Shown here: in pieces, positions 12,011-25,748 of the stretch
How positions within the stretch are numbered: position 1 is the first letter of the stretch
How the letters are laid out: every line of letters begins with the position of its first letter
Assembly: GCA_030263535.1 (NCBI GenBank)
Contig: SZPB01000019.1
Location: 1 to 32,244 of the forward strand
Reading direction: 5' to 3'
Origin: Cytophagia bacterium CHB2
GTDB lineage: Bacteria; Zhuqueibacterota; Zhuqueibacteria; Zhuqueibacterales; Zhuqueibacteraceae
Length of the DNA stretch: 32,244 bases
Program-made: the position numbers and the translations under genes
The notes under the pieces: generated by a model
Databases searched by the model: none
What the model was told of the DNA's origin: nothing
The model's input: only the letters and a program-made list of their open reading frames with translations

Positions 12011-12299
12011 ACGCCTCCCAAAAATGTGAGCGCAGCTTTTTGCAGCCAATGCGGAATCGTGCTCTTCCTTCGAAAGGTTGTTGAATCGTACTTTTTACAA
12101 CGAAAAATTGCAAAGTTTTCTTGTAACAATCTACCCCGATTTTCAGACAAGCTGAAAATCGAAACTCTTCGAGCAGCTTTGAAAGCATCGCCCACAGAAG
12201 TGGAACGGCCACAGAAAGGAAAAAGCCTTTTCGGTGGGATTTCACTCAGTGGGCGAAACACTTTCAGAATTTTGTTCTAACTTTGAGCGCCTTAAGGCT
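12011..12299. other. 289-bp non-coding interval with hairpin and repeat fragment
   Basis: This interval lies between the sorting-domain protein gene and the CPBP gene. It contains a perfect 10-bp hairpin CGATTTTCAG-acaag-CTGAAAATCG at 12137-12161. It also holds a fragment (about 12208-12243) of the GGCCACAGAA/GTGGGATTT repeat seen at 9320-9399. The hairpin lacks a U-tract on the minus strand, so a terminator role is uncertain. Confidence 0.6.
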
Positions 12300-13808
12300 T
12301 TATTTTACAAAAACCGCCTTGCGTATCCGAGAAAATTTTCCTGCGGTGATTTTGTAGAAATATAGCCCGCCGGCCAAATCGCACGGCGCGAACGTCACAG
12401 TATGATTTCCCGCCGGCATTTCTCCATCCATCAGCGTCGCCACTTCGCGGCCATTCACATCAAACACCTTCAGCGTCACACGACTGTTCACGGGCAATTG
12501 AAAACTGATCACGGTGCTGGGGTTGAAGGGATTGGGATAATTCTGCGCCAATGCAAAACCTGCGGGGCGTTCCGCGGGCTTTTCTGTAACTGCGGTCGCG
12601 GCGGCAATTTGCTTTTGCAGAAATGCGCCGGCTGGAGAAAGCTGTTTTTGCAGCATCCGCTGAAAACCGGCTTGCTGGCCGCTGCGCAATTTTTGGGAAA
12701 AAGACATGTTCCCATGAATGGCGGGATTGTAGGTCAGATAACCGTACAACAGCGTTGGCCAGAAAAACGAGGTGACTCTGACTCTCGAAAAGTGGGAAAG
12801 ATTCACCAGCGCTTTGATGAATAGCGTATCGATTGGAACCCAGTAATCGAACATGTCGCGCGAATAGATCTCTGCGCTCGTCGCCACCGGATTGGTGATA
12901 TTGGTCATCTCACCATTGGTGGCTTTGTAGCACCACGCCTCGCCGATGACCAGCTCTTTGTTGTGCGCTTTGGCGAGAGAATCAATTCTAAAAACCACGT
13001 CATCGAAGTAGCTGAAATGCGGCGGATAAATGTGATAATCAATAAAATCGATGCCGGTTTGCGCCAGCTTTTCGAAATAAACAAAATCATCCCACGTGCC
13101 CGCGCCGGCGCCAATCTGTGTGTTCTTTTTATTCACATGCCGCAGAAAATACTCGGTATAAGCCGCCATGCTGTCCGCCTGAAAATCCACCAACTGCAAC
13201 AGATTGATCGTCATGGCTTGCGGCTCCATCTCGACTGTGAGATAGTCGGGCGCCAGCCGGTCGATGATGGTTTGCAGCATTTGCATCTTTTCTGTTTTGT
13301 AGCGTGTACTGTTCAAACCAATATAAAAATTCTTCACATCATTGGTCAAATTCGGCTCACCGAAAACCGAATCGACAAATGTAGCCTGGCAACCGAGCAA
13401 AATCGTGAAGTGCCGCGCTCGCGCCAATTGCACGACATTTTCATAGAACTGAATGTATTTATCGCGATTGGGAAAACCCTCTACGAACATCGGATATTGA
13501 ATGGTGAGGCCGATCGCGCGTAAGCCGACCATTTCGAATGCCGACAGCATGCTGTCAATCGCGGCCAGCAATTGCGACTGCGTCGCGGGATTGATCAATT
13601 CATATCCGCGATTGCTGTTGGCGAGCGACAAATCTTCGCTAAAGGCGGTGCCGTGTTTTTGCCCGTCCCACCTGCTCAAAATTTGGGCGTTGATGCTCTG
13701 CAGTTTGGGCTGCAGTTGATTGAACGCGGTTTGCCAGGTCGCCGGCGCTTGGGCAAAAGCCGCTTGCGCCAGAATGAATGCGAAAAGAAGCGAAGTAAAT
13801 TTTCTCAT
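12300..13808 (-). CDS. Secreted TIM-barrel-like (glycoside hydrolase-like) protein with type IX-style sorting domain
   Basis: 502 aa. ATG 13808 is chosen for its AGGA seven bases upstream and the immediate signal peptide MRKFTSLLFAFILAQAAFAQ. An in-frame ATG two codons earlier is too close to the Shine-Dalgarno. The middle (about 80-370) has alternating strand/helix segments typical of a (beta/alpha)8 barrel. Acidic strand ends, TVEMEP (Glu193/195) and VIGEAW (Glu290), are placed like the acid/base and nucleophile of clan GH-A hydrolases. The function is inferred and the substrate unknown. The C-terminal 80 residues (NYPNPFNPS, then VFDVNGREVATL, GLYFYKI) are the FlgD-like/Por sorting domain used by type IX secretion in FCB bacteria. 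It is therefore probably exported to the surface or released. Confidence 0.82.
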   Translation of the reverse strand: MRKFTSLLFAFILAQAAFAQAPATWQTAFNQLQPKLQSINAQILSRWDGQKHGTAFSEDLSLANSNRGYELINPATQSQLLAAIDSMLSAFEMVGLRAIGLTIQYPMFVEGFPNRDKYIQFYENVVQLARARHFTILLGCQATFVDSVFGEPNLTNDVKNFYIGLNSTRYKTEKMQMLQTIIDRLAPDYLTVEMEPQAMTINLLQLVDFQADSMAAYTEYFLRHVNKKNTQIGAGAGTWDDFVYFEKLAQTGIDFIDYHIYPPHFSYFDDVVFRIDSLAKAHNKELVIGEAWCYKATNGEMTNITNPVATSAEIYSRDMFDYWVPIDTLFIKALVNLSHFSRVRVTSFFWPTLLYGYLTYNPAIHGNMSFSQKLRSGQQAGFQRMLQKQLSPAGAFLQKQIAAATAVTEKPAERPAGFALAQNYPNPFNPSTVISFQLPVNSRVTLKVFDVNGREVATLMDGEMPAGNHTVTFAPCDLAGGLYFYKITAGKFSRIRKAVFVK

Positions 13809-13825
13809 GATCATTTCCTGTTTGA

Positions 13826-13867
13826 TGATCGGTGAAAATCCGTATTCCTCCGTGGCCAAAGAAAAAA
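13826..13867. repeat. Fragment of the dispersed AATCCGTG repeat
   Basis: The string GTGAAAATCCGTATTCCTCC followed by GTGGCCAAAGAAAAA matches the right half of the repeats at 29588-29711 and 31299-31410. Only one arm is present. It lies just upstream of the start of the sorting-domain protein gene, in its 5' region. Confidence 0.7.
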
Positions 13868-14054
13868 CGCCCGGCAGTGAATCGGATATAACAATCCCCT
13901 TGCCAGTTTTAGTAAGATTAAACAATGGCGTTAACTGGCAATTATTTCTACGCTGGGATATGTGATGACAAACAGGAGAGAGAAACGTTCTGTACGGATT
14001 GGGACAAATCGGCTGGCCGAACAAAGCCACTCACATCAAACGATTCCTGCGTGG

Positions 14055-15260
14055 TCAGGAGATATTCGCGATCCGTGCGACTGCGTCACCCAGTTGCCGC
14101 ATGGCAGCTTGCAAGTTCTCCATCGAATTCGCATACGAGAGGCGCACATGTTGCCGGCTGCCAAAGGCCTCGCCGCCCACCAGCGCCACGCCGGCGTGTT
14201 CGATAAACAGATGCACCAGATCGGAGGGAGATGCAATGGTTTTGCCGGCAAACGTTTTGCCCAGCAACGGCGCTATGTTCGCAAAAATATAAAATGCCCC
14301 GCCCGGCAGGCGCGCCGAAAGCCCGGGCATCTGATTGATTGCGGCGTGCACAAAGTCGCGGCGTTTTTCAAACTCGTGGCGCATCGCGAGCAATTCTTGC
14401 TCATTCATGGCAAGCGCGGCGCATCCGGCCTCTTGCGAGATCGAGCACGGATTCGAAGTGGTGTGGCTTTGAATTTTCGCCACGGCCTTGGCAATTGCCG
14501 CAGGCGCAGCAACGTAGCCCAGGCGCCAGCCCGTCATGGCATAAGCTTTCGAAAAGCCGTTTACCAGAATCAACTGATCGTGCAACTCGGGAAACGCCGC
14601 CAAGCTGCACGTCTGCACCTCGCGGTAGACCAGTTTGATATAAATCTCATCCGAAAGCACGAAGATTTGTTTGCGCCGGATCACCTCAGCGAGCGCCTGC
14701 AATTCCTCTTTCGAATAAACCGCGCCAGTCGGGTTGCTCGGGCTGTTCAGCAATACCAGTTTCGTCCTGGGCGTGATCGCCTGCTCCAGCGCTTGCGGCG
14801 AGATTTTGAAATCGTCTGCTTCCTGGGCGGCAACGATTACCGGCGTCGCGCCGGCCATCTTCACTTGTTCGGGATAGCTGACCCAATACGGCACCGGCAC
14901 GATCACTTCATCGCCGGGATTGCAGAGCGCGAGCAGCACGTTGTGAATCGCTTGTTTGGCGCCGTTGGACACGACGATTTGATGCGAAGTATAATTCGCG
15001 CCGCTGATCGTCTTGAGATGATTGCCAATGGCTTCGCGCAGCGCCAGCGTGCCGACATTGGGCGTGTATTTGGTTTTGCCGGCGCGAATCGCGGCAATGC
15101 CCGCGGCTTTGATTTCTTCGGGCGTGTCAAAATCCGGCTCGCCGGCGCCGAGATCGATAACAGCCTTGCCCCGGCGGCGCAGTTCGGCAACCAGCGTGGT
15201 GATCGCAAGCGTTTCGGAGGGTTGAATGCGTTGGCAGAAGGAAGATTCTTGAAATTGCAT
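14055..15260 (-). CDS. aspC: Class I PLP-dependent aminotransferase (aspartate aminotransferase type)
   Basis: 401 aa, the usual length. ATG 15260 has AAGG upstream. Visible motifs are GEPDFDTP (40-47), KYTPN (64-68), SNPTGA with Asn176, SDEIY (203-207), and NGFSKAYAMTGWRLGY with the PLP-binding Lys238. RLSYANS near the C-terminus carries the carboxylate-binding Arg. These place it in the type Ib aspartate aminotransferase group, which moves the amino group between aspartate or related substrates and 2-oxoglutarate in the cytoplasm. Substrate choice (aspartate or prephenate) cannot be read reliably. It is last in a co-directional block, 187 bp after pta, so it may have its own promoter. Confidence 0.92.
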   Translation of the reverse strand: MQFQESSFCQRIQPSETLAITTLVAELRRRGKAVIDLGAGEPDFDTPEEIKAAGIAAIRAGKTKYTPNVGTLALREAIGNHLKTISGANYTSHQIVVSNGAKQAIHNVLLALCNPGDEVIVPVPYWVSYPEQVKMAGATPVIVAAQEADDFKISPQALEQAITPRTKLVLLNSPSNPTGAVYSKEELQALAEVIRRKQIFVLSDEIYIKLVYREVQTCSLAAFPELHDQLILVNGFSKAYAMTGWRLGYVAAPAAIAKAVAKIQSHTTSNPCSISQEAGCAALAMNEQELLAMRHEFEKRRDFVHAAINQMPGLSARLPGGAFYIFANIAPLLGKTFAGKTIASPSDLVHLFIEHAGVALVGGEAFGSRQHVRLSYANSMENLQAAMRQLGDAVARIANIS

Positions 15261-15447: not shown

Positions 15448-16437
15448 TCATCGCATTTCTCCGGCCATGATCGAACAAATGCACGCGACATTGACAATAT
15501 CCTTCACCGAGCAGCCGCGGGAAAGATCATTTGCGGGCTTCGCCAAGCCCTGTAAAATCGGGCCAATGGCGTCGTAACCCGCCAAACGCTGCACGAGCTT
15601 GTAAGCAATATTGCCGGCATCGAGATCGGGGAAGATTAAAACGTTTGCCTCACCCTTAATCGTGCCTGCCGGCGCTTTGCGTTGCGCAATCTCTGGTACG
15701 AGAGCGGCATCGGCTTGCAGCTCGCCATCAATTCTCAAATCCGGGCGCAGGCGCTGCGCGATTTGAGTTGCGGCCCGGACTTTCTCAACGCGGGCGTGTT
15801 GGGCGCTGCCGTTGGTTGAAAACGACAGCAGGGCAACTGCGGGCGCTTCGCCGGTCAGCTTTTGGTGCGTGGTCGCTGCCGTTACTGCAATCTCCGCGAG
15901 TTGTTGCGGCGAGGGATCAGGCACCACAGCGCAATCCGCAAACGTCAAGACTTTGCCGCTTTGCGGAGACACCATCGCGAACGTGCTCGACACCAGTGAA
16001 ATGCCCGGCGCGATGCCGAGGAATTGCAGCGCCGCGCGCAAAACTTCCGAAGTCGAATAAACCGAACCTGCCACCGAACCCTCGGCCTTGCCGGCTTTGA
16101 CATAGGCCGCAGCAAAATAAACCGGCTCGTGTAATTTGGCAAGGGCTTGTTCGAAGGTGAGGCCTTTGTGCTGAAATTCCGCATGATGCTGCGCGGCCCA
16201 GACATGAATTTCAGGATATTGGCGCGGCGCGACGATTTCAAGGTTTTGCCAGGAAACGCCGCTTTGTTGCGCCGCCGCGGCAATCTTATCCGCTTCGCCG
16301 ATCAGAACGGGATGCGCCAATTGCTGTTCGGATAAATATGCTGCCGCACGCAAGACTCGCGGCTCGGTCGCTTCCGGAAAAGCGAGGCGCCGGGGACGTT
16401 GCCGCGCACGCGCCTGAAGAGTTTCCAAAAAATTCAT
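15448..16437 (-). CDS. pta: Phosphate acetyltransferase
   Basis: 329 aa, the length of the short, single-domain Pta class; the N-terminal DRTGG regulatory region of long forms is absent. The start is MNFLETLQARARQRP. Family blocks are seen: RRLAFPEATEPRVLRAA (16-32), AGSVYSTSEVLRAALQ, SSTFAM, DCAVVPDPSPQQLAEIA, LSFSTNGSA, GELQADAALVPEIAQRK, ANVLIFPDLDAGNIAYKL and GPILQGLAKPANDLSRG. It interconverts acetyl-CoA and acetyl phosphate. The start overlaps the coaD stop by four bases (ATGA), so translation is probably coupled. No acetate kinase gene is adjacent in this window. Confidence 0.95.
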   Translation of the reverse strand: MNFLETLQARARQRPRRLAFPEATEPRVLRAAAYLSEQQLAHPVLIGEADKIAAAAQQSGVSWQNLEIVAPRQYPEIHVWAAQHHAEFQHKGLTFEQALAKLHEPVYFAAAYVKAGKAEGSVAGSVYSTSEVLRAALQFLGIAPGISLVSSTFAMVSPQSGKVLTFADCAVVPDPSPQQLAEIAVTAATTHQKLTGEAPAVALLSFSTNGSAQHARVEKVRAATQIAQRLRPDLRIDGELQADAALVPEIAQRKAPAGTIKGEANVLIFPDLDAGNIAYKLVQRLAGYDAIGPILQGLAKPANDLSRGCSVKDIVNVACICSIMAGEMR

Positions 16438-16916
16438 GCTTGCGCCAGCTTTTGCCGGATGCGTTCATTCACCGCCGCCGGCACAAAACAAGTCACATCG
16501 CCGCCGAAGCGGGCGACTTCCTTGACGATGGTGGAATTCAAATACGTGTATTTCTCGTTCGCCGTCAAAAATACCGTGTCCATGCCGTGTGAAATTTTGC
16601 GGTTGATCAGCGCCATTTGCGATTCATACTCAAAGTCGGAAATCGCGCGCAGGCCGCGAATGAGCACGCTCGCGCCCCGGCCTGCGGCATATTCCACCAA
16701 CAAACCGGAAAAGCTTTCAACGCGCACGTTGGAAAAATGCCGCGTCGCCTCCCGGAACATCTCGAGCCGTTCCGCCACACTGAACATCGGATTTTTAGCG
16801 GAATTCGTGGTCACTGCAACGACAACCTGATCGAACAACATGGCCGCACGCTCGACAATGTCAAGGTGGCCGTTGGTCACTGGATCGAATGTTCCGGGAT
16901 AGATCGCCAGTTTCAT
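16434..16916 (-). CDS. coaD: Pantetheine-phosphate adenylyltransferase
   Basis: 160 aa, full length. The N-terminus MKLAIYPGTFDPVTNGHLDI contains the nucleotidyltransferase (T/H)xGH motif at residues 14-17. LIRGLRAISDFEYE and the late STIVKEVARFGGDV block are the conserved PPAT signatures. It catalyses the penultimate step of coenzyme A synthesis: ATP plus 4'-phosphopantetheine gives dephospho-CoA. It starts two bases after the rsmD stop and overlaps pta by four bases. An rsmD-coaD pair is very common in bacteria, which supports both calls. Confidence 0.97.
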   Translation of the reverse strand: MKLAIYPGTFDPVTNGHLDIVERAAMLFDQVVVAVTTNSAKNPMFSVAERLEMFREATRHFSNVRVESFSGLLVEYAAGRGASVLIRGLRAISDFEYESQMALINRKISHGMDTVFLTANEKYTYLNSTIVKEVARFGGDVTCFVPAAVNERIRQKLAQA

Positions 16917-16918
16917 CG

Positions 16919-17470
16919 TTATTCTCGCCGGTAGAATAGCAGTTTGGTTTCACCAATGCGTCGCTCCGACAGGAATTGCAGTCCTGGAGGTGGAGCCGGC
17001 AGATTAATGCGGGAAGAAGTTTCCAGCACGAGCAGACCGGCCGGTGTAAGAATAGGATTCGCGGTGATCAATTGCAAGAGTCGATCGTAGCCGCTGAAAT
17101 CATACGGTGGGTCAGCCAGAATCAAATCATAAGGCGGGCGCTCGTCCGCCCGGCGCGCCAAAAAAAGAAACGCATCATCGACCATCACGCGCGCGTGATC
17201 TTCGAGATGCGTTTTGTGCAAATTGGTTTGAATAAGACGGGCGTGCTGCCGGTTCTTTTCAAGAAAGTCGACCCACGCCGCGCCGCGGCTCAATGCTTCG
17301 ATTCCCAACCCGCCGGCGCCGGCAAATACATCCAACACGCGCGCACCGGCCATGCCCCGGCCCAAAACATCGAACAGAACGGTGCGAACACGACTGCTGG
17401 TGGGGCGAACCTGCCGGCTGGCCGGCGTCAGCAGGAGATGCCCCTTCCGCGTGCCGGCGATCACTCGCAT
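16919..17470 (-). CDS. rsmD: 16S rRNA (guanine966-N2)-methyltransferase
   Basis: 183 aa. MRVIAGTRKG and RPTSSRVRTVLFDVL match the RsmD N-terminus. VLDVFAGAGGLGIEALSRGA (about 45-64) is the SAM-binding motif I, and ADPPY (119-123) is the catalytic motif IV of N2-guanine methyltransferases. It should methylate G966 of 16S rRNA in the small subunit. It starts four bases after the PilN-like gene stop and has no strong Shine-Dalgarno, which suggests translational coupling. Confidence 0.95.
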   Translation of the reverse strand: MRVIAGTRKGHLLLTPASRQVRPTSSRVRTVLFDVLGRGMAGARVLDVFAGAGGLGIEALSRGAAWVDFLEKNRQHARLIQTNLHKTHLEDHARVMVDDAFLFLARRADERPPYDLILADPPYDFSGYDRLLQLITANPILTPAGLLVLETSSRINLPAPPPGLQFLSERRIGETKLLFYRRE

Positions 17471-17474
17471 GCGC

Positions 17475-18533
17475 TTACAGCATCTCGACCAGGTTGAAAT
17501 TCATCACCAAATCCAAATTCTCATCGCTGAACGTTTTGTGATCGCTCGGACACAGGATGATTTTGGTGATGGAGACATTCGGGTTGGCATTCATGAATTC
17601 TTGCATGAAGGCCTGCACCCCGGCGTTCGAGCCGGCAACATGAATTTGCATGGGAACGCCCGCGCCGCTCGCTTGCCCGGCGCGCTGGTTCTTGATGCTC
17701 AAACCCTGCTGCTGCGCCAAATCGCGGAGCCAGGTGGAAAACTGCTCGCTGCCCAGACGGTTGAGCGTGCCTTGAAAGCCCGCCAATCCAGCGCGCGCAT
17801 CCATAGCCCCGGCCACCAGAACCTTGCGCATGGCGCCGCCGGTGCTCGGTTGCTCGGATTCTGATACGGTTTTCAGATCGCTGGGCGAAACATTCGCTTG
17901 CATGGCGCTGGTCAAACTGCTGGTCACGTCGGAAGAGGGTGAGAGGAACTCGACCAGGAAGCGGTTATTGCTATCGCCGTGATAGGTAATCAGCGTAAAT
18001 TGATTGGGAGCGGCGAACGAACGCACCAATGACATCACGGCCCACATGCCCGTGCGGGTGGAAGCGATCACCTCCTGCTCGCGCGGCGACAACTGCGCGA
18101 GCGCCTCTTCACCGGAGGGTGCCGGCGGCACGCTCATTTCAGCGGCAGAATCGATGCCGGTGGCCTCGCCCATGGCCAGCGGATCTTCTTCCGGCAGGGT
18201 CTGCATGGGCGGGATTTGTTGGGTTTTGTTGCCGCCGCGCGGAATCATAAAAAAGACTGCCGTCAACGCAGCGAGAATCAAGCCCAGAACGATCAGATAA
18301 GCTTTGGTGCGTGAAGAGGAACCTTCGCCGTAATTTTCCGGAGATTTTCGAGAAAAGGACGAGCCGACGGTGTCACGCTGAAAACTCGCGCCTACGGTTT
18401 CGCGGCCAAAGGAGCTTGTGCCGCTCTCGGTCGCCCGCGTGGGCTCCTCGAGATTCACCGTTTTCGCATAATTTTCCTCGCGCTGGCGATCCTCGCTATT
18501 GTCGTCGTCTCCTAATAGATTAATGTCGACCAT
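17475..18533 (-). CDS. PilN-like bitopic membrane protein with long cytoplasmic linker
   Basis: 352 aa, ATG 18533 with GGAGG six bases upstream. The N-terminus MVDINLLG carries the INLL(P) peptide that in PilN docks into PilM of type IV pili. Residues 10-75 are polar and low complexity, with a short internal repeat (SSFGRETVGA, SFQRDTVGS, SFSRK). One membrane helix lies at 78-97. The rest is a periplasmic region with a Pro/Glu-rich linker (102-140), a mixed alpha/beta domain and a C-terminal ferredoxin-like-looking segment (PMQIHVAGSN, MQEFMNANP, ending in NFNLVEML). It is probably an inner-membrane platform component of a type IV pilus, type II-like secretion or DNA-uptake machine with the PilM-like protein upstream. 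No PilO, PilP or PilQ gene follows; rsmD comes next. Confidence 0.7.
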   Translation of the reverse strand: MVDINLLGDDDNSEDRQREENYAKTVNLEEPTRATESGTSSFGRETVGASFQRDTVGSSFSRKSPENYGEGSSSRTKAYLIVLGLILAALTAVFFMIPRGGNKTQQIPPMQTLPEEDPLAMGEATGIDSAAEMSVPPAPSGEEALAQLSPREQEVIASTRTGMWAVMSLVRSFAAPNQFTLITYHGDSNNRFLVEFLSPSSDVTSSLTSAMQANVSPSDLKTVSESEQPSTGGAMRKVLVAGAMDARAGLAGFQGTLNRLGSEQFSTWLRDLAQQQGLSIKNQRAGQASGAGVPMQIHVAGSNAGVQAFMQEFMNANPNVSITKIILCPSDHKTFSDENLDLVMNFNLVEML

Positions 18534-18573
18534 TACCGGCCTCCACTCGATGATAAATGTGATGAGGTATGAT

Positions 18574-19539
18574 TTACAATTTTTTCAAAGCGGCGCCAAC
18601 CGACGTCATAAACGTTTCCGGATTATCCTGCCAGGCAGAAGCTCCGGCCAAATTCGCCGTTTTCAGCCGTAGAAAGGGGTTGGCACGCTCGATGGGGAGA
18701 TGATGGCCGTTTTGCAGCGTCTCCACCATGCGCGCCGTGACATGATCGCCGTAAATATAAATGGCGCTCATGTCTTCCACATCCTTGCCGATTTTATTGT
18801 CCAGAATCAGGCGGCGCAACTCTTTGAAGATGACGCGCGCCAGATAATCATGATCCATGTGCGCCGCATCGTTTTGATCTTCCAACGAATAGTCAATGTC
18901 TTGCGCCACCAGGAACTTGTCATTTTTGAGCAGCGAAATCTGCAAATTCTCTTTGCGCACATCGACCAGGACGATGAAGCCGTTCTCCGGCGCTTGGTAA
19001 TTCTCTTGCACCACGCGCTGCGCGGCAAATACGTCGACGTCAACCGCGCGCAAGCGCAAATCGGTGTTGTGAAAAATGTCCTTCACAAAATTGATTACGG
19101 TTTTCCGTACGATCGCGACGACGACTTCGGCATTTTCCTGCTCGCGGCCCGGCTCATAATATTCATAGGCAACGCTGTAATCGGCCACGGGATTGATCAC
19201 GCATTGCTCGACCTCCCAATCGACATGATCTTTCAGGCGTGCGCCTTTCAAACTCACGTCCACCGGAATTTTTTTGATCGCCACCAGGCTTGAATCCAGC
19301 GAGATGACGGCGTGCCGCGCTTGAAAGTCGGAGACTTCATACAACCGATTGATGTCTTCCGCGAACTTGTTTATCAGCGATGCGTCTTTAAAAGACGAAA
19401 AATGCAAAGGCACACGCGCCCGCCCTTGAGCCAACCGGGTCACTTTGATTTCACGATTGGCGCGCGAAACTTCCGTGAGACGCAGCGCCGTATCACGGAT
19501 ACTGACACCCACAATCCCTTGCGTTGAAGCGTCCGTCAT
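18574..19539 (-). CDS. PilM-like actin-fold ATPase
   Basis: 321 aa, ATG 19539 with GGAT upstream, no signal peptide. The N-terminal GIVGVSIRDTALRLTEVSR is the actin/PilM phosphate-1 strand-turn-strand, more diverged than the usual DIGSSSVK form. KKIPVDVSLKGARLKDHVDWEVEQ (93-116) matches the PilM/FtsA region that precedes the second subdomain. FIVLVDVRKENLQISLL is the phosphate-2-like turn, and the C-terminal MTSVGAALKKL is typical of PilM. It is predicted to be cytoplasmic, binding the INLL peptide of the PilN-like protein encoded 40 bp downstream. Loss of the canonical Asp in the first phosphate loop could reduce ATP hydrolysis, which is inference. Confidence 0.75.
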   Translation of the reverse strand: MTDASTQGIVGVSIRDTALRLTEVSRANREIKVTRLAQGRARVPLHFSSFKDASLINKFAEDINRLYEVSDFQARHAVISLDSSLVAIKKIPVDVSLKGARLKDHVDWEVEQCVINPVADYSVAYEYYEPGREQENAEVVVAIVRKTVINFVKDIFHNTDLRLRAVDVDVFAAQRVVQENYQAPENGFIVLVDVRKENLQISLLKNDKFLVAQDIDYSLEDQNDAAHMDHDYLARVIFKELRRLILDNKIGKDVEDMSAIYIYGDHVTARMVETLQNGHHLPIERANPFLRLKTANLAGASAWQDNPETFMTSVGAALKKL

Positions 19540-19714
19540 AATCTATCCACTCTTTCACGTCACGATACCAACAGATGCGGTTTTACAAAATTGCAACTTT
19601 TCAACAGTCTCGCGCCACTTGCATGGAATTCCTGACAGCCGGGTGCATGGACATTGTCTTAAACTATCAACAATCAGTCGATTTTGCCGAAGAAAATCCT
19701 GCGTTCCCGGCGCA

Positions 19715-20143
19715 TTATTCCACCGTCACAACTCTTTTAAGCTCGGCCATCCGCTTTTTGCCGATGCCCTTTACGCGCGCCAGTTCTTCCACGCGGGTAA
19801 ACTTGCCGTTCGCCTCACGCGCCTGCAAGATCCGTTGCGCCATCACAGGCCCGATGCCGGGCAATCGGATCAATTCGTCCAGCGTAGCAGTATTAAGATT
19901 GACCCGCTTCGGCGCTTCCCGGGACGGTGTTGCACCCGAAGAATCCATGAGCGCCATCGTGATGGGCGCCGCGCCGGTGTCTGATTCCACCGCGTGTGCA
20001 AAAGCTTCCAAAATTGCGACCTGCTGCGGATCGGGCGCGGGCGGCGGCGTTTGTTTGCGATAATACAACAGCAAACACCCGGCGCCGAATGTCACCAGCA
20101 AAAACAGCGTGGCGCGCTGCTGCTGTTTCGTGAATCCCCACAT
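19715..20143 (-). CDS. ComEA-like helix-hairpin-helix DNA-binding protein
   Basis: 142 aa. ATG 20143 is chosen because GGGAGG lies seven bases upstream; a TTG 15 bases earlier would also work. An N-terminal membrane anchor (about residues 10-27, FLLVTFGAGCLLLYY) is followed by a Pro-rich linker, then two helix-hairpin-helix motifs. These are NLNTATLDELIRLPGIGPVMAQRI, with the GIGP hairpin, and FTRVEELARVKGIGKKRM, with the second GIG. This is the ComEA architecture for periplasmic binding of incoming DNA during transformation. It lies 17 bp after dnaJ and 175 bp before the PilM-like gene, which fits a pilus-linked DNA-uptake role. Confidence 0.85.
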   Translation of the reverse strand: MWGFTKQQQRATLFLLVTFGAGCLLLYYRKQTPPPAPDPQQVAILEAFAHAVESDTGAAPITMALMDSSGATPSREAPKRVNLNTATLDELIRLPGIGPVMAQRILQAREANGKFTRVEELARVKGIGKKRMAELKRVVTVE

Positions 20144-20159
20144 GGCCCACCCTCCCAAT

Positions 20160-21296
20160 TTACGTAAACGCCTCCTTCATCTTCTGAAAAAAGCTGCGAC
20201 TGTCCTCCGGCGGCTTCAGGCCATCGAATTTTGCCAACTCTTTGAAGGCTTCACGCTCTTTCGCCGATAATTTCGTCGGAATCCAGATTAACACGCGCAC
20301 AAGTTGATCGCCTTTGCCGTAACCATTCAAATGCGGAATGCCCTTGCCGCGCATGCGTAAAATCTTGCCGGATTGCGTGCCCGCCTGAATCTCCAAAATG
20401 GCTTCGCCCTCCAGCGTGGGGATCGTGACGTGATCGCCCAACACCGCTTGTGTGATGCTGACCGGCAATTCGTACAGAATATCATCGCCGTGACGCTCGA
20501 ACTTATCGTGTTCCTTTTCACCCAGCAACACAATCACATCCCCAGGCGCGCCGCCGCGCGGCCCGACCGGACCTTCGCTGCGAATCGTGAGATAATTGCC
20601 GGAGGATACGCCCGGTGGGATTTCCACGGAGATGGTTTTTTCTCCTTCGACCCGGCCCTGCCCCCGGCAGGAGTGGCACACTTCTTTGACGATCTTGCCT
20701 TCGCCTTCACATTGCGGGCAGGTCGTCACATTGATGAATTGCCCGAAAATCGTGTTGGAGCGCTGGCGAATCTCGCCGGCGCCGCCGCAGGACGGACATG
20801 TAACCGGCTTGCTGCCTGTCGCGCCGCCCGAGCCATCGCAGGTGGTGCAGCGCACGAAGGTTTTGATTTTGAGTTTCTTACTGACGCCGGTAGCGACTTC
20901 TTCCAACGTGAGATTCAAACGTACCTGCAAGTCGCTGCCGCGCGGGCTTTCGCCGCGGCGCCGAGCGCGCCCGCCGCCAAAAAATTCGCCGAAAATGCCC
21001 TCCGACATGAATGTGCGTAGGGCATCCGACAAATCGAATTCAAAATCGCGATACCCCCCGCCCGTTCCGCCGCGCAGGCCAGCATGGCCAAACCGGTCAT
21101 AGGTGGCGCGCTTTTGCGGATCGCGCAAAACTTCATAGGCTTCCGCGATTTCCTTGAATTGCTCCTCCGCCGCCTTGTCGCCGGCATTGCGGTCAGGATG
21201 ATATTGCATCGCCAGCTTGCGGTATGCTTTCTTGATCTCGTCATCCGACGCATTCTTTTGCAGACCGAGCGTTTCGTAATAATCTCGTTTGGCCAT
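20160..21296 (-). CDS. dnaJ: Chaperone protein DnaJ
   Basis: 378 aa, full-length class A DnaJ. The J domain has HPD at residues 33-35. A Gly/Phe-rich stretch lies at about 75-112 (GGTGGGYRDFEFD, FGEFFGGGR). The zinc-binding domain has four CxxCxGxG repeats (Cys150/153, 167/170, 193/196, 207/210). The C-terminal substrate-binding domains follow. It stimulates DnaK ATPase activity and delivers unfolded proteins in the cytoplasm. It follows grpE by 21 bp. dnaK is not in this block, so it must lie elsewhere. No strong Shine-Dalgarno is seen. Confidence 0.98.
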   Translation of the reverse strand: MAKRDYYETLGLQKNASDDEIKKAYRKLAMQYHPDRNAGDKAAEEQFKEIAEAYEVLRDPQKRATYDRFGHAGLRGGTGGGYRDFEFDLSDALRTFMSEGIFGEFFGGGRARRRGESPRGSDLQVRLNLTLEEVATGVSKKLKIKTFVRCTTCDGSGGATGSKPVTCPSCGGAGEIRQRSNTIFGQFINVTTCPQCEGEGKIVKEVCHSCRGQGRVEGEKTISVEIPPGVSSGNYLTIRSEGPVGPRGGAPGDVIVLLGEKEHDKFERHGDDILYELPVSITQAVLGDHVTIPTLEGEAILEIQAGTQSGKILRMRGKGIPHLNGYGKGDQLVRVLIWIPTKLSAKEREAFKELAKFDGLKPPEDSRSFFQKMKEAFT

Positions 21297-23643: not shown

Positions 23644-24318
23644 ATGACAACTCACGCCCAAGCCTCTTTTAACGTTGTCGGTAATGCGACCACCGCGGCG
23701 GCTTTGCTCAACCCTTTGCGGCTGGAGATTCTCGAACGCTTGCGCGAGCCCGACTCCGCCTCCGGTTTGTCCCGGCAGATGAATTTGCCGCGGCAAAAAC
23801 TGAATTATCATCTGCGCGAGCTGGAAAAGCACGGCCTAATCGAACCGGTGGAAGAGCGCCGCAAGGGTAACTGTGTCGAGCGAATCATGCGCGCCACCGC
23901 GCGGCACTATCTCATCAGCCCGCAAGCGCTCGGCAATTTGGCCACCGAGCCCGGTCAGGTTCAGGATCGCTTTTCTTCAACCTATCTCATTGCGGCAGCC
24001 GCGCGCGCCATTCGCGACCTGGCAACCTTGCGCGCCGGCGCGGAAAAAACCGGCAAGCAGCTTCCAACTTTCACGCTGGAAACGAATGTCAAGCTGGCTT
24101 CGGCGACTGATTTAAACGCCTTCACCGAAGAATTGGCCAATACGGTTGCGCGCTTATCGGCGAAATATCACAACGAGCACGATAGCCGCGGCCGCGTCTT
24201 CAAGTTTATCATCGGATCCTACCCAGCCGTTACGCACGCGGAAGAACCATCTGCCGCAGATTCAGCAACAAAAACACAAATCGCCGGTAAAATTTCGAAG
24301 AAAGGAGACCCCGCATGA
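23644..24318 (+). CDS. ArsR-family winged-helix transcriptional regulator
   Basis: 224 aa, ATG 23644. Residues 15-85 form an ArsR-like winged helix (LLNPLRLEILERLREP, SGLSRQMNLPRQKLNYHLRELEKHGLI). The metal-binding ELCVC motif is absent, so it probably does not sense metals. The C-terminal half (about 140-205, with TLETNVKLASATDLNAFTEEL and KYHNEHDSRGRVFKFIIGSYP) is the extension found in ArsR-type regulators located next to SRPBCC genes. It overlaps the next gene by four bases (ATGA) and probably controls this three-gene cassette. Confidence 0.85.
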   Translation: MTTHAQASFNVVGNATTAAALLNPLRLEILERLREPDSASGLSRQMNLPRQKLNYHLRELEKHGLIEPVEERRKGNCVERIMRATARHYLISPQALGNLATEPGQVQDRFSSTYLIAAAARAIRDLATLRAGAEKTGKQLPTFTLETNVKLASATDLNAFTEELANTVARLSAKYHNEHDSRGRVFKFIIGSYPAVTHAEEPSAADSATKTQIAGKISKKGDPA

Positions 24319-24833
24319 AGCACAGCAAACTTGTCCTGTTGGCAATCGGCCTCGTCTCGTTGCTGGCATATTTGGTATCGGCGCAAAACACCGCCGCTCC
24401 AGCGCGCGCCGCACATGCCTTCGACAAACTCAAAACCTTGGCCGGTGATTGGCAAGGTACCAGCTCAGACGGCAAAATGCGAACCGTTTCTTATCAATTA
24501 GCCGCCGGAAGCACAGCGCTGGTGGAGACTCTCACGCCCGAAGGTGAACCGAGCATGGTCAGTCTCTACCATCGCGACGGCGAGACCCTGATGATGACGC
24601 ATTATTGCTCGGCCAATAATCAGCCTCGTATGCGGGCAGAAATTCCCCCGGGTGACCTGAACACTTTGGAATTCGTCTTCGTCGACGTCACCAATCTCGC
24701 CAAGCCTACCGGCGGCCACATTCATGGCCTCACACTGACTCTCGAAGATGCCGACCATCTTGCACAAACTTGGACTTGGCGTGAAAACGGCAAAGAGGTT
24801 TCGGATACATTCACACTCAGCCGCAAAAAATAG
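24315..24833 (+). CDS. Secreted beta-rich protein (DUF1579/lipocalin-like)
   Basis: 172 aa, ATG 24315 with a strong AAAGGAG seven bases upstream. A signal peptide (MKHSKLVLLAIGLVSLLAYLVSAQ) precedes a beta-rich domain. LKTLAGDWQGTSSDG, QLAAGSTALVETLTPEG, MVSLYHRDGETLMMTHYC and a late LAQTWTWRENGKEV resemble the small beta-barrel proteins annotated as DUF1579 or lipocalin-like. It is predicted to be periplasmic. Its ligand is unknown. It is translationally coupled to the ArsR-type regulator and lies 69 bp before the SRPBCC gene, so all three may respond to one signal. Confidence 0.75.
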   Translation: MKHSKLVLLAIGLVSLLAYLVSAQNTAAPARAAHAFDKLKTLAGDWQGTSSDGKMRTVSYQLAAGSTALVETLTPEGEPSMVSLYHRDGETLMMTHYCSANNQPRMRAEIPPGDLNTLEFVFVDVTNLAKPTGGHIHGLTLTLEDADHLAQTWTWRENGKEVSDTFTLSRKK

Positions 24834-24902
24834 CGGCGCTGCCTGAGAAGCAGTGCGATCTCGATAACATACCCTTGGCTTTGAGTCGAAAGGAATCAAA
24901 TC

Positions 24903-25748
24903 ATGACAGACGCAATCTCCAAACCGAAGACGCGCGACATCGAGACGGAGGTGGAAATCAACGCGCCGGTGGAGGCGGTGTGGAAGGCGCTCACGGATGC
25001 GGAGGAGTTGACGCGCTGGTTTCCGCTCGAGGCCGGCACGAATCCCGACGGCACGTTGCGCATGTCATGGCGCGACGAGTTTTGTTGGGATAGCCGCATC
25101 CAGATTGCCGAGCCGCATCGCCATTTTCGCATCGCCTCGGTTGAGCGTTTGGCGGATCAACAACCCGCGCCTGACGCGACTGAGCGCAGCGTGACAGTGG
25201 CGCAGCCCACGGCAACCGATTTCTTTCTGGAAGCGCGCGGCGGCAAAACCGTTCTGCGCTTGGTACATTCGGGATTTTCAGCGGACGCGGAATGGGATGC
25301 GTTGTATGACGGCACACGCCGCGGCTGGAAATTTCAGTTATGGAGTTTACGCCATTATCTGGAAAACCATCGCGACACCCCGCGCGAAACGGCCTATGTG
25401 CGGATTTTTCTCCAAAAACTGTCGCGGCATGAGGCCTGGCAGCGCCTCTTCAGCACAAACATGCTGGCGCGCGAGGGGACAATTGAAAATCTCCGGCCCG
25501 GCGGGCGTTATGCCCTGCGAACAGCAACCGGCGATTATTTCGAGGGCGTGGTACAAACGTTTAATCCGCCGCAAGAATTCAGCGCAACCGCGGAGAATTT
25601 CAACAACGGCATCTTGCAGGTGCAGCTCGATGCGCTTTTCAACTATCGCGATGTGAATTTCTATTTGTTCACGTACGGCATTCCCAAACAAGAGGTGAGT
25701 GCAATCGAATCGCGCATGCGTGGCCTGTTGCGCAAATTGGAGGATTAA
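24903..25748 (+). CDS. SRPBCC / AHSA1-like domain protein
   Basis: 281 aa, ATG 24903 with AAAGGA upstream. The N-terminal half (about 12-155) is an SRPBCC domain: DIETEVEINAPVEAVWKAL, LTRWFPLEA, then KTVLRLVHSGF and GTRRGWKFQLWSLRHYLE, typical of AHSA1-like START-fold proteins with a hydrophobic ligand pocket. Residues 160-281 (TAYVRIFLQKLSRHEAWQR, NLRPGGRYALRTATGD, NFYLFTYGI) look like a second, diverged START-like domain. It has no signal peptide, so it is probably cytoplasmic. It is the third gene of the ArsR-led cassette, and its reading frame ends about 300 bp before a bidirectional terminator. Confidence 0.85.
   Translation: MTDAISKPKTRDIETEVEINAPVEAVWKALTDAEELTRWFPLEAGTNPDGTLRMSWRDEFCWDSRIQIAEPHRHFRIASVERLADQQPAPDATERSVTVAQPTATDFFLEARGGKTVLRLVHSGFSADAEWDALYDGTRRGWKFQLWSLRHYLENHRDTPRETAYVRIFLQKLSRHEAWQRLFSTNMLAREGTIENLRPGGRYALRTATGDYFEGVVQTFNPPQEFSATAENFNNGILQVQLDALFNYRDVNFYLFTYGIPKQEVSAIESRMRGLLRKLED

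Follow-up and report, generated by a model that had tools for sequence, protein, structure and literature searches.

The DNA analysed here (the window) is the whole stretch of 32,244 nucleotides at positions 1 to 32,244 of contig SZPB01000019.1 of Cytophagia bacterium CHB2, a genome of the candidate division KSB1. On its minus strand, a PilM-like gene and a PilN-like gene lie side by side in an operon that reads hrcA-grpE-dnaJ-comEA-pilM-pilN-rsmD-coaD-pta, with intergenic gaps of 39, 21, 1, 175, 40, 4, 2, and -4 bases in operon order. The pair and its nearest neighbours are as follows:

16434-16916, minus strand: coaD, a conserved neighbour, named from its sequence
16919-17470, minus strand: rsmD, a conserved neighbour 4 bases past pilN, named from its sequence and in the sequence-only reading that preceded this study
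17475-18533, minus strand: pilN-pilO-like gene, 352 aa, with an N-terminal peptide, a linker on the cytoplasmic side, a single membrane helix, and two periplasmic domains in tandem
18574-19539, minus strand: pilM-like gene, 321 aa, of the PilM_2 family
19540-19714, minus strand: gap of 175 bases at the usual site of X, a pilin-like gene that stands here in relatives
19715-20158, minus strand: comEA-like gene, 147 aa, with an N-terminal hydrophobic helix and a helix-hairpin-helix domain
20160-21296, minus strand: dnaJ, a conserved neighbour, named from its sequence

Elsewhere in the window, we noticed that a protein encoded at 12300-14030 (minus strand) ends in a stretch (PNPFNPST... to the C-terminus) resembling a type IX secretion sorting domain. 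At 23644-25748 on the plus strand, i.e., opposite to the chaperone operon, an HTH_20/ArsR-type regulator is followed by an AHSA1-domain protein.

The gene order is well kept among relatives. In all of the 49 loci compared (40 from relatives in the class and 9 from outside it), dnaJ and a comEA-like ORF are followed by adjoining pilM and pilN, and a chance neighbourhood was hence rejected; these loci were picked for PilM or PilN matches, so that the 49/49 measures gene order and not presence. Also, rsmD and coaD are present in 48 loci, and the exception (L064) stops at a contig end beside pilN. The comEA-like ORF beside dnaJ is short (67 aa) in one locus (L090). The window's ComEA-like protein matched PF12836 with an E-value of 1.4e-20 and TIGR00426 above its cut-off.

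The sequence-only reading had proposed a PilM-like/PilN-like pair, and two such ORFs are indeed found on the minus strand. The PilM-like protein matched PF11104 (PilM_2) over residues 11-211 (E 5.8e-18; 65.4 bits, with a cut-off of 27), TIGR01175 with an E-value of 2.9e-21 (75.9 bits, below the cut-off of 133), and, in PDB, PilM of M. xanthus (3jc8_Ma) with an E-value of 2.9e-13. Its gene is the sole PF11104 match at E <= 0.001 in the window's genome, and a search for related loci with this protein recovered the KSB1 group once more, plus a single doubtful match. We then inspected DxG[ST] (phosphate-1), a second Gly, and GG, which we take to be the actin-like nucleotide motifs of PilM. As the earlier mention of a diverged phosphate loop anticipated, the full DxG[ST] motif occurs in 0/50 operon PilMs (the window's counted); the second Gly is kept in three (L054, L055, and L095) and GG in one (L091), and none has two of the three motifs together. 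In the PilMs of four pilus-type loci of relatives, by comparison, DxG[ST] is found in 3/4, and both the second Gly and GG in 4/4. Judged from the sequences, the nucleotide-binding motifs of the operon PilM are degenerate throughout the family. A scaffold role of PilM may survive loss of ATP binding, because an ATP-binding mutant of Thermus PilM retained binding to the motor and stimulates it together with PilN (PMC6325625).

Within the PilN-like protein, the following features can be distinguished:

18510-18533, minus strand: N-terminal peptide MVDINLLG, putatively docking PilM; M1, N5, and L6 do not vary across the 29 aligned sequences, which include that of the window
18339-18413, minus strand: SF.R.TVG repeat in the linker, residues 41-65, read from the sequence
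18249-18314, minus strand: predicted membrane helix, residues 74-95, from a single-sequence model and the hydrophobic sequence
17805-18047, minus strand: periplasmic domain 1, residues 163-243, alpha-beta-beta-alpha-beta-beta in the models, at the position of PilN
17490-17798, minus strand: periplasmic domain 2, residues 246-348, of PilO type by profile and fold

An M..INL-type or MNL motif is present in the first 60 residues of the PilN-like frame in 49/49 cases, and by analogy with PilM-PilN of Thermus, MVDINLLG would be the PilM-docking peptide (PMC6325625). Both this INLL peptide and a long cytoplasmic linker had been pointed out from the sequence, and both are borne out; the linker comprises about 70 mostly polar residues ahead of the helix modelled at residues 74-95. 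The SF.R.TVG repeat reported along with them is also present from residue 41 (SFGRETVG, SFQRDTVG, and then SFSRKSP), but in the alignment of the PilN-like proteins it can be made out in no genus other than the window's. A variable stretch separates the membrane helix from the periplasmic part, for which both single-sequence models (n = 2; mean pLDDT of 52.9 and 60.8, i.e., low to middling confidence) gave two tandem alpha-beta-beta-alpha-beta-beta units.

Both profile and fold identify the second of these units, namely the C-terminal ~100 residues, as a PilO domain. A profile of 29 PilN-like sequences matched PilO of M. xanthus (3jc8_Oa) with an E-value of 8.3e-5, and the same chain was the first Foldseek match (E 6.5e-4). 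In VIA-align, domain 2 was superposed on PilO of P. aeruginosa (2rjz_A) with Z 13.0 (2.5 A over 94 residues), and unrelated rows peaked below it at Z 7.9; hhalign of domain 2 with three PilO-like proteins of relatives gave 74%. Pfam T2SSM_b was matched by 16/29 and PilO by 10/29 of the PilN-like members (E <= 1), the best T2SSM_b match (E 2.5e-6) being that of a relative; by itself, the protein from the window gave a poor Pfam match (T2SSM, E 0.045). The absence of PilO, PilP, and PilQ noted from the sequence is accordingly correct in that no separate pilO, pilP, or pilQ follows and rsmD does, but "no PilO" was rejected given the Pfam matches across members, the profile, and the fold: a PilO domain lies within the PilN-like protein itself.

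Domain 1 resembles PilN in topology alone, as seen in models of low to middling pLDDT. Pfam PF05137 (PilN) was touched by 2/29 members with a best E-value of 0.1, and hhalign with three PilN-like proteins gave 0.8%. Domain 1 gave no useful match to profiles of PilN-like or PilO-like proteins, nor did the whole PilN-like protein to NCBIfam, and structure searches with domain 1 returned common alpha-beta folds only, with no PilN chain among the matches listed. Because domain 2 is PilO and domain 1 occupies the place of PilN, we interpret the protein as a fusion of PilN and PilO, in which the PilN half is putative.

The genome of the window also carries a filament locus apart from the pilM-pilN locus. 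Contig C131 encodes two T2SSE-family ATPases and a secretin as well as pilin-like, PilM/N-like, and PilO-like genes named by position and eye; no credible solved relatives were found for its PilO-like and PilM/N-like proteins. Profile searches of this genome gave no match to T2SSF and PF01478 (prepilin peptidase); C131 ends inside an ATPase gene, and in genome G001 a T2SSF match is directly upstream of the corresponding gene. It had been considered beforehand that a canonical system might stand elsewhere in the genome and that the pair might be unrelated to it; a filament locus does exist on C131, but the pair is akin to PilM by sequence and to PilO by sequence and fold, so that this objection fails overall. 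In the window's organism, pilM-pilN may have a role with the C131 machine, and because of this locus, any independence from pili has to be argued from relatives. Regarding the four pilus-type loci, three possess their own PilM together with PilN-/PilO-like genes assigned by position, and in the fourth PilM is within a larger protein.

Several other features of these filament loci were observed. The pilin-like genes of C131 (locus L036; minus strand, 12032-12946, 13037-13609, and 13644-14177) have no Pfam match, and in those of L036, L083, and L084 the earliest ATG/GTG/TTG start available is followed at once by a Gly codon (Met-Gly), an in-frame stop lying at most 20 codons upstream in 9/10; in one of them (MGYREL), the fifth residue, with Met as the first, is Glu. 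Searches of G000, G001, and G003 gave no PF01478 match, although G001 and G003 do have T2SSE, T2SSF, and secretin; perhaps, a machine of the C131 type works without a prepilin peptidase. At 7757-10699 of L036 (minus strand), between a PilT-like and a PilO-like gene, a protein of ~980 aa looks by eye like a PilM/PilN-like fusion; it has a SPOR domain near the C-terminus (E 2.5e-7) and no Pfam PilM match. Also, next to the secretin gene of L036 (2599-5439, minus strand) is a protein of 946 aa in which WD40-like repeats are visible by eye, and relatives of this protein occupy the same site in G001 and G003.

Across the phylum, the PilN-like profile matched all of the 61 genomes that are at least 85% complete, including the window's own and a second one of the same species. 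A search with the single sequence had missed the protein in 25/60 genomes, and the profile search then found it in 61/61. The match in G071 (E 6.6e-4) covers the N-terminal part only, and reading of its locus shows the operon; the match in G061 holds an in-frame stop, and the other 60 are stop-free. In a set of 60 genomes (the window's own and 59 relatives), PF11104 was matched in 58, the two others being 79% and 70% complete. T2SSE was over the cut-off in 51/60 genomes of this set (the window's own counted), G026 being among them only via a P-loop fragment (25.0 bits over 74 positions, with a cut-off of 24.9), and in 12/12 out-of-class genomes searched.

Eight genomes (G021, G026, G031, G034, G042, G046, G052, and G057; drafts of 78-100% completeness) keep comEA-X-pilM-pilN and have no filament machine detected by profile searches: secretin, T2SSF (PilC), and the prepilin peptidase PF01478 were each found in 0/8, and T2SSE was either absent or represented by P-loop fragments only. 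A pilin, a prepilin peptidase, an extension ATPase, and a platform protein are described as common to every type IV filament system (PMC10191384); from these four core proteins, the eight genomes have the pilin-like X alone. A less complete genome (G049, 56%) is similar and was left out of the eight, and another (G058, 70% complete) has neither secretin nor T2SSE over the cut-off and no PilM or PilN match. A quick tree built from four proteins of 49 genomes requires six changes in the presence of the machine, with gain and loss indistinguishable. In the comparison of G046 with G057, both machine-less, dN/dS was 0.12 for X, 0.15 for pilM, 0.24 for pilN, and 0.10 for comEA, and 0.06-0.21 for six neighbour genes; dS of these genes is saturated in two other machine-less pairs. 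X, pilM, pilN, and comEA are thus under purifying selection in the one usable machine-less pair. A minimal or repurposed inner-membrane platform had been suggested from the sequence, and the occurrence of the pair in eight relatives without secretin, PilC, peptidase, or a convincing T2SSE speaks for it.

The pilin-like gene X is found between comEA and pilM in 43/49 loci. The window's genus lacks X at this locus. In all, the gene is missing here from the window and from G001, G002, G029, G050, G054, and G055, which needs two changes on the tree, and visual inspection of the three frames on the minus strand of the window's 175-base comEA-pilM gap showed no remnant of it. In X, Gly8 and Pro30 are invariant in 25/25 sequences, with Pro 22 residues after Gly, and the four best solved matches to its profile were PilA, GspG, PilA, and geopilin (E 0.0024, 0.01, 0.026, and 0.77, respectively); Pfam N_methyl was matched by just 2/25 (best E 0.016). 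Position 1 is Ser, Asn, or Arg in 42/43, with one start unreadable and Phe1 in none, and position 5 is Glu in 23/43 and Lys or Gln in 19/43. In pilins, Glu5 pairs with the processed N-terminus; Glu5 is retained in X of 6/8 machine-less genomes, and this might hint at processing by some other enzyme. A clear pilin directly precedes PilM, followed by PilN-like and PilO-like genes, in 2/4 pilus-type loci, which suggests that the X-PilM-PilN order was inherited from a filament operon. We also noticed that X from outside the class is 581-683 aa long in 7/9 loci (L091-L097), versus 216-365 aa elsewhere, with a start and an HG...SW-type end similar to those of the shorter X.

Taken together, we consider it reasonably probable that the two proteins form the core of a small scaffold at the inner membrane that has no motor and is independent of a pilus; the pair probably serves a job other than pili there. 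PilM would sit on the cytoplasmic face and clamp the M..INL peptide of the PilN-like protein, the two periplasmic domains of which would act as a built-in, fixed PilN-PilO dimer. Where present, X would be held by this scaffold as an unprocessed, single-pass pilin-like subunit, in a similar way to PilA4, which PilMNO of Thermus binds (PMC6325625); X would be left uncut where the peptidase is not found. Like the window, however, 6/49 loci lack X between comEA and pilM, which means that X is not the sole client. The most concrete client would be the handling of periplasmic DNA with the ComEA-like protein, a rather doubtful suggestion. In its widest form, the reading is a standing envelope complex throughout the phylum, consisting of a degenerate PilM, a PilN-PilO fusion, and an uncut membrane-held X, with a ComEA-like neighbour and without the three other filament core parts; we put this forward tentatively, as plausible but somewhat short of probable.

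Other explanations need to be weighed. It is unlikely, in our view, that the pair is a trans-acting accessory of a type IV filament or type II secretion machine with PilB, PilC, and secretin encoded elsewhere. The PilM and PilO families do belong to such machines, X is pilin-like, the window's genome has the ATPases and the secretin of C131, and T2SSE is as frequent as described above (with G026 by its fragment); nonetheless, the operon is kept in eight genomes with no detected machine, across six state changes on the tree, the machine-less pair with usable dS shows purifying selection, and 3/4 pilus-type loci have PilM and positional PilN-/PilO-like genes of their own. A dedicated DNA-uptake complex, in which the ComEA-like protein would bind periplasmic DNA and X and the scaffold would hold it near ComEC with no retracting pilus, is doubtful but worth entertaining. 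The comEA-like ORF is upstream of the pair in 49/49 loci, PilMNO of Thermus serves DNA translocation (PMC6325625), and ComEC was matched in 8/8 machine-less genomes and in 18/19 genomes searched. The co-occurrence of ComEC with the operon gives weak support, however, because ComEC is widespread (10/14 control genomes), and one genome (G063) carries the operon with no ComEC match; furthermore, the eight genomes have no secretin or convincing motor, the neighbouring dnaJ, rsmD, and coaD point to a housekeeping unit, and the comEA-like product may be just a membrane helix-hairpin-helix protein.

Co-option into another envelope machine, such as the flagellar cage of FcpMNO or the proposed archaellum anchor of PilNO, has precedents in Campylobacterota (PMC11870540) and Chloroflexota (PMC13319060) but seems distinctly unlikely here: retention in all of the sampled genomes would call for a partner machine just as general, the operon shows no recognisable flagellar gene, and homologues of FcpMNO are reported to be absent outside Campylobacterota (PMC11870540). 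A functionless, decaying relic of a lost pilus operon would accord with the degenerate nucleotide motifs of PilM, with X missing at this locus in two lineages, and with the in-frame stop in the PilN match of G061. Decay was nonetheless rejected and is very improbable, given the PilN-like protein in 61/61 genomes, 60 of them stop-free, and dN/dS of 0.10-0.24 for the four genes in the comparison of G046 with G057.

The motorless scaffold, which we favour, can be compared with several known systems. It shares with type IVa PilM-PilN-PilO the PilM family, the N-terminal NL peptide of PilN, the PilO domain, and the pilin-PilM-PilN order, as found in 2/4 pilus-type loci. It departs from that system in joining the PilO domain to the PilN-type N-terminus within one polypeptide, in the degenerate nucleotide motifs of its PilM, and in having neither PilP nor PilQ next to it; the pair is also retained where the motor and the platform were not found, in the setting of a dnaJ-rsmD-coaD operon. 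FcpM, FcpN, and FcpO in Campylobacterota are also PilMNO homologues with a conserved neighbourhood in species without pilus genes but are separate flagella-linked proteins present in 59/82 species (PMC11870540), whereas the KSB1 operon has an N/O fusion with pilin-like and ComEA-like neighbours. For the archaellum of Litorilinea aerophila, PilN and PilO are likewise hypothesised to act outside a type IV pilus; PilM is absent there and archaellum genes are nearby (PMC13319060), whereas the KSB1 operon keeps PilM. Structures of the PilO-like Amuc_1100 of Akkermansia match domain 2 (6kny_A, Z 10.2), and NF045709, the family of the PilM-like Amuc_1101, matches PilM weakly (E 4.4e-4, far below its cut-off), but organism and locus are different. 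Domain 2 also matches the periplasmic domains of PulM, PulL, EpsM, and EpsL (Z 7.0-8.4), in likeness to GspL/GspM of type II secretion. In terms of novelty, PilMNO outside pili is already known from FcpMNO, and PilNO of an archaellum has been proposed (PMC11870540, PMC13319060); the KSB1 operon is set apart by the N/O fusion, by the degenerate PilM, and by the retention of a pilin-like and a ComEA-like partner within a housekeeping operon. We recognised no published description of the operon in the literature searched, which lay mostly outside subscription journals.

PilMNOP, according to a review, was perhaps scored as essential only through stabilising the platform and the ATPase (PMC10191384). 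The KSB1 genomes seemingly present the reverse deletion in nature: PilM, PilN/PilO, and the pilin-like X remain, and the ATPase, the platform, the peptidase, and the secretin are not found. With this reverse deletion seen in several lineages of one phylum, the stand-alone role of PilMNO becomes testable, and KSB1 joins Campylobacterota as a phylum with PilMNO homologues that are kept in the absence of pili.
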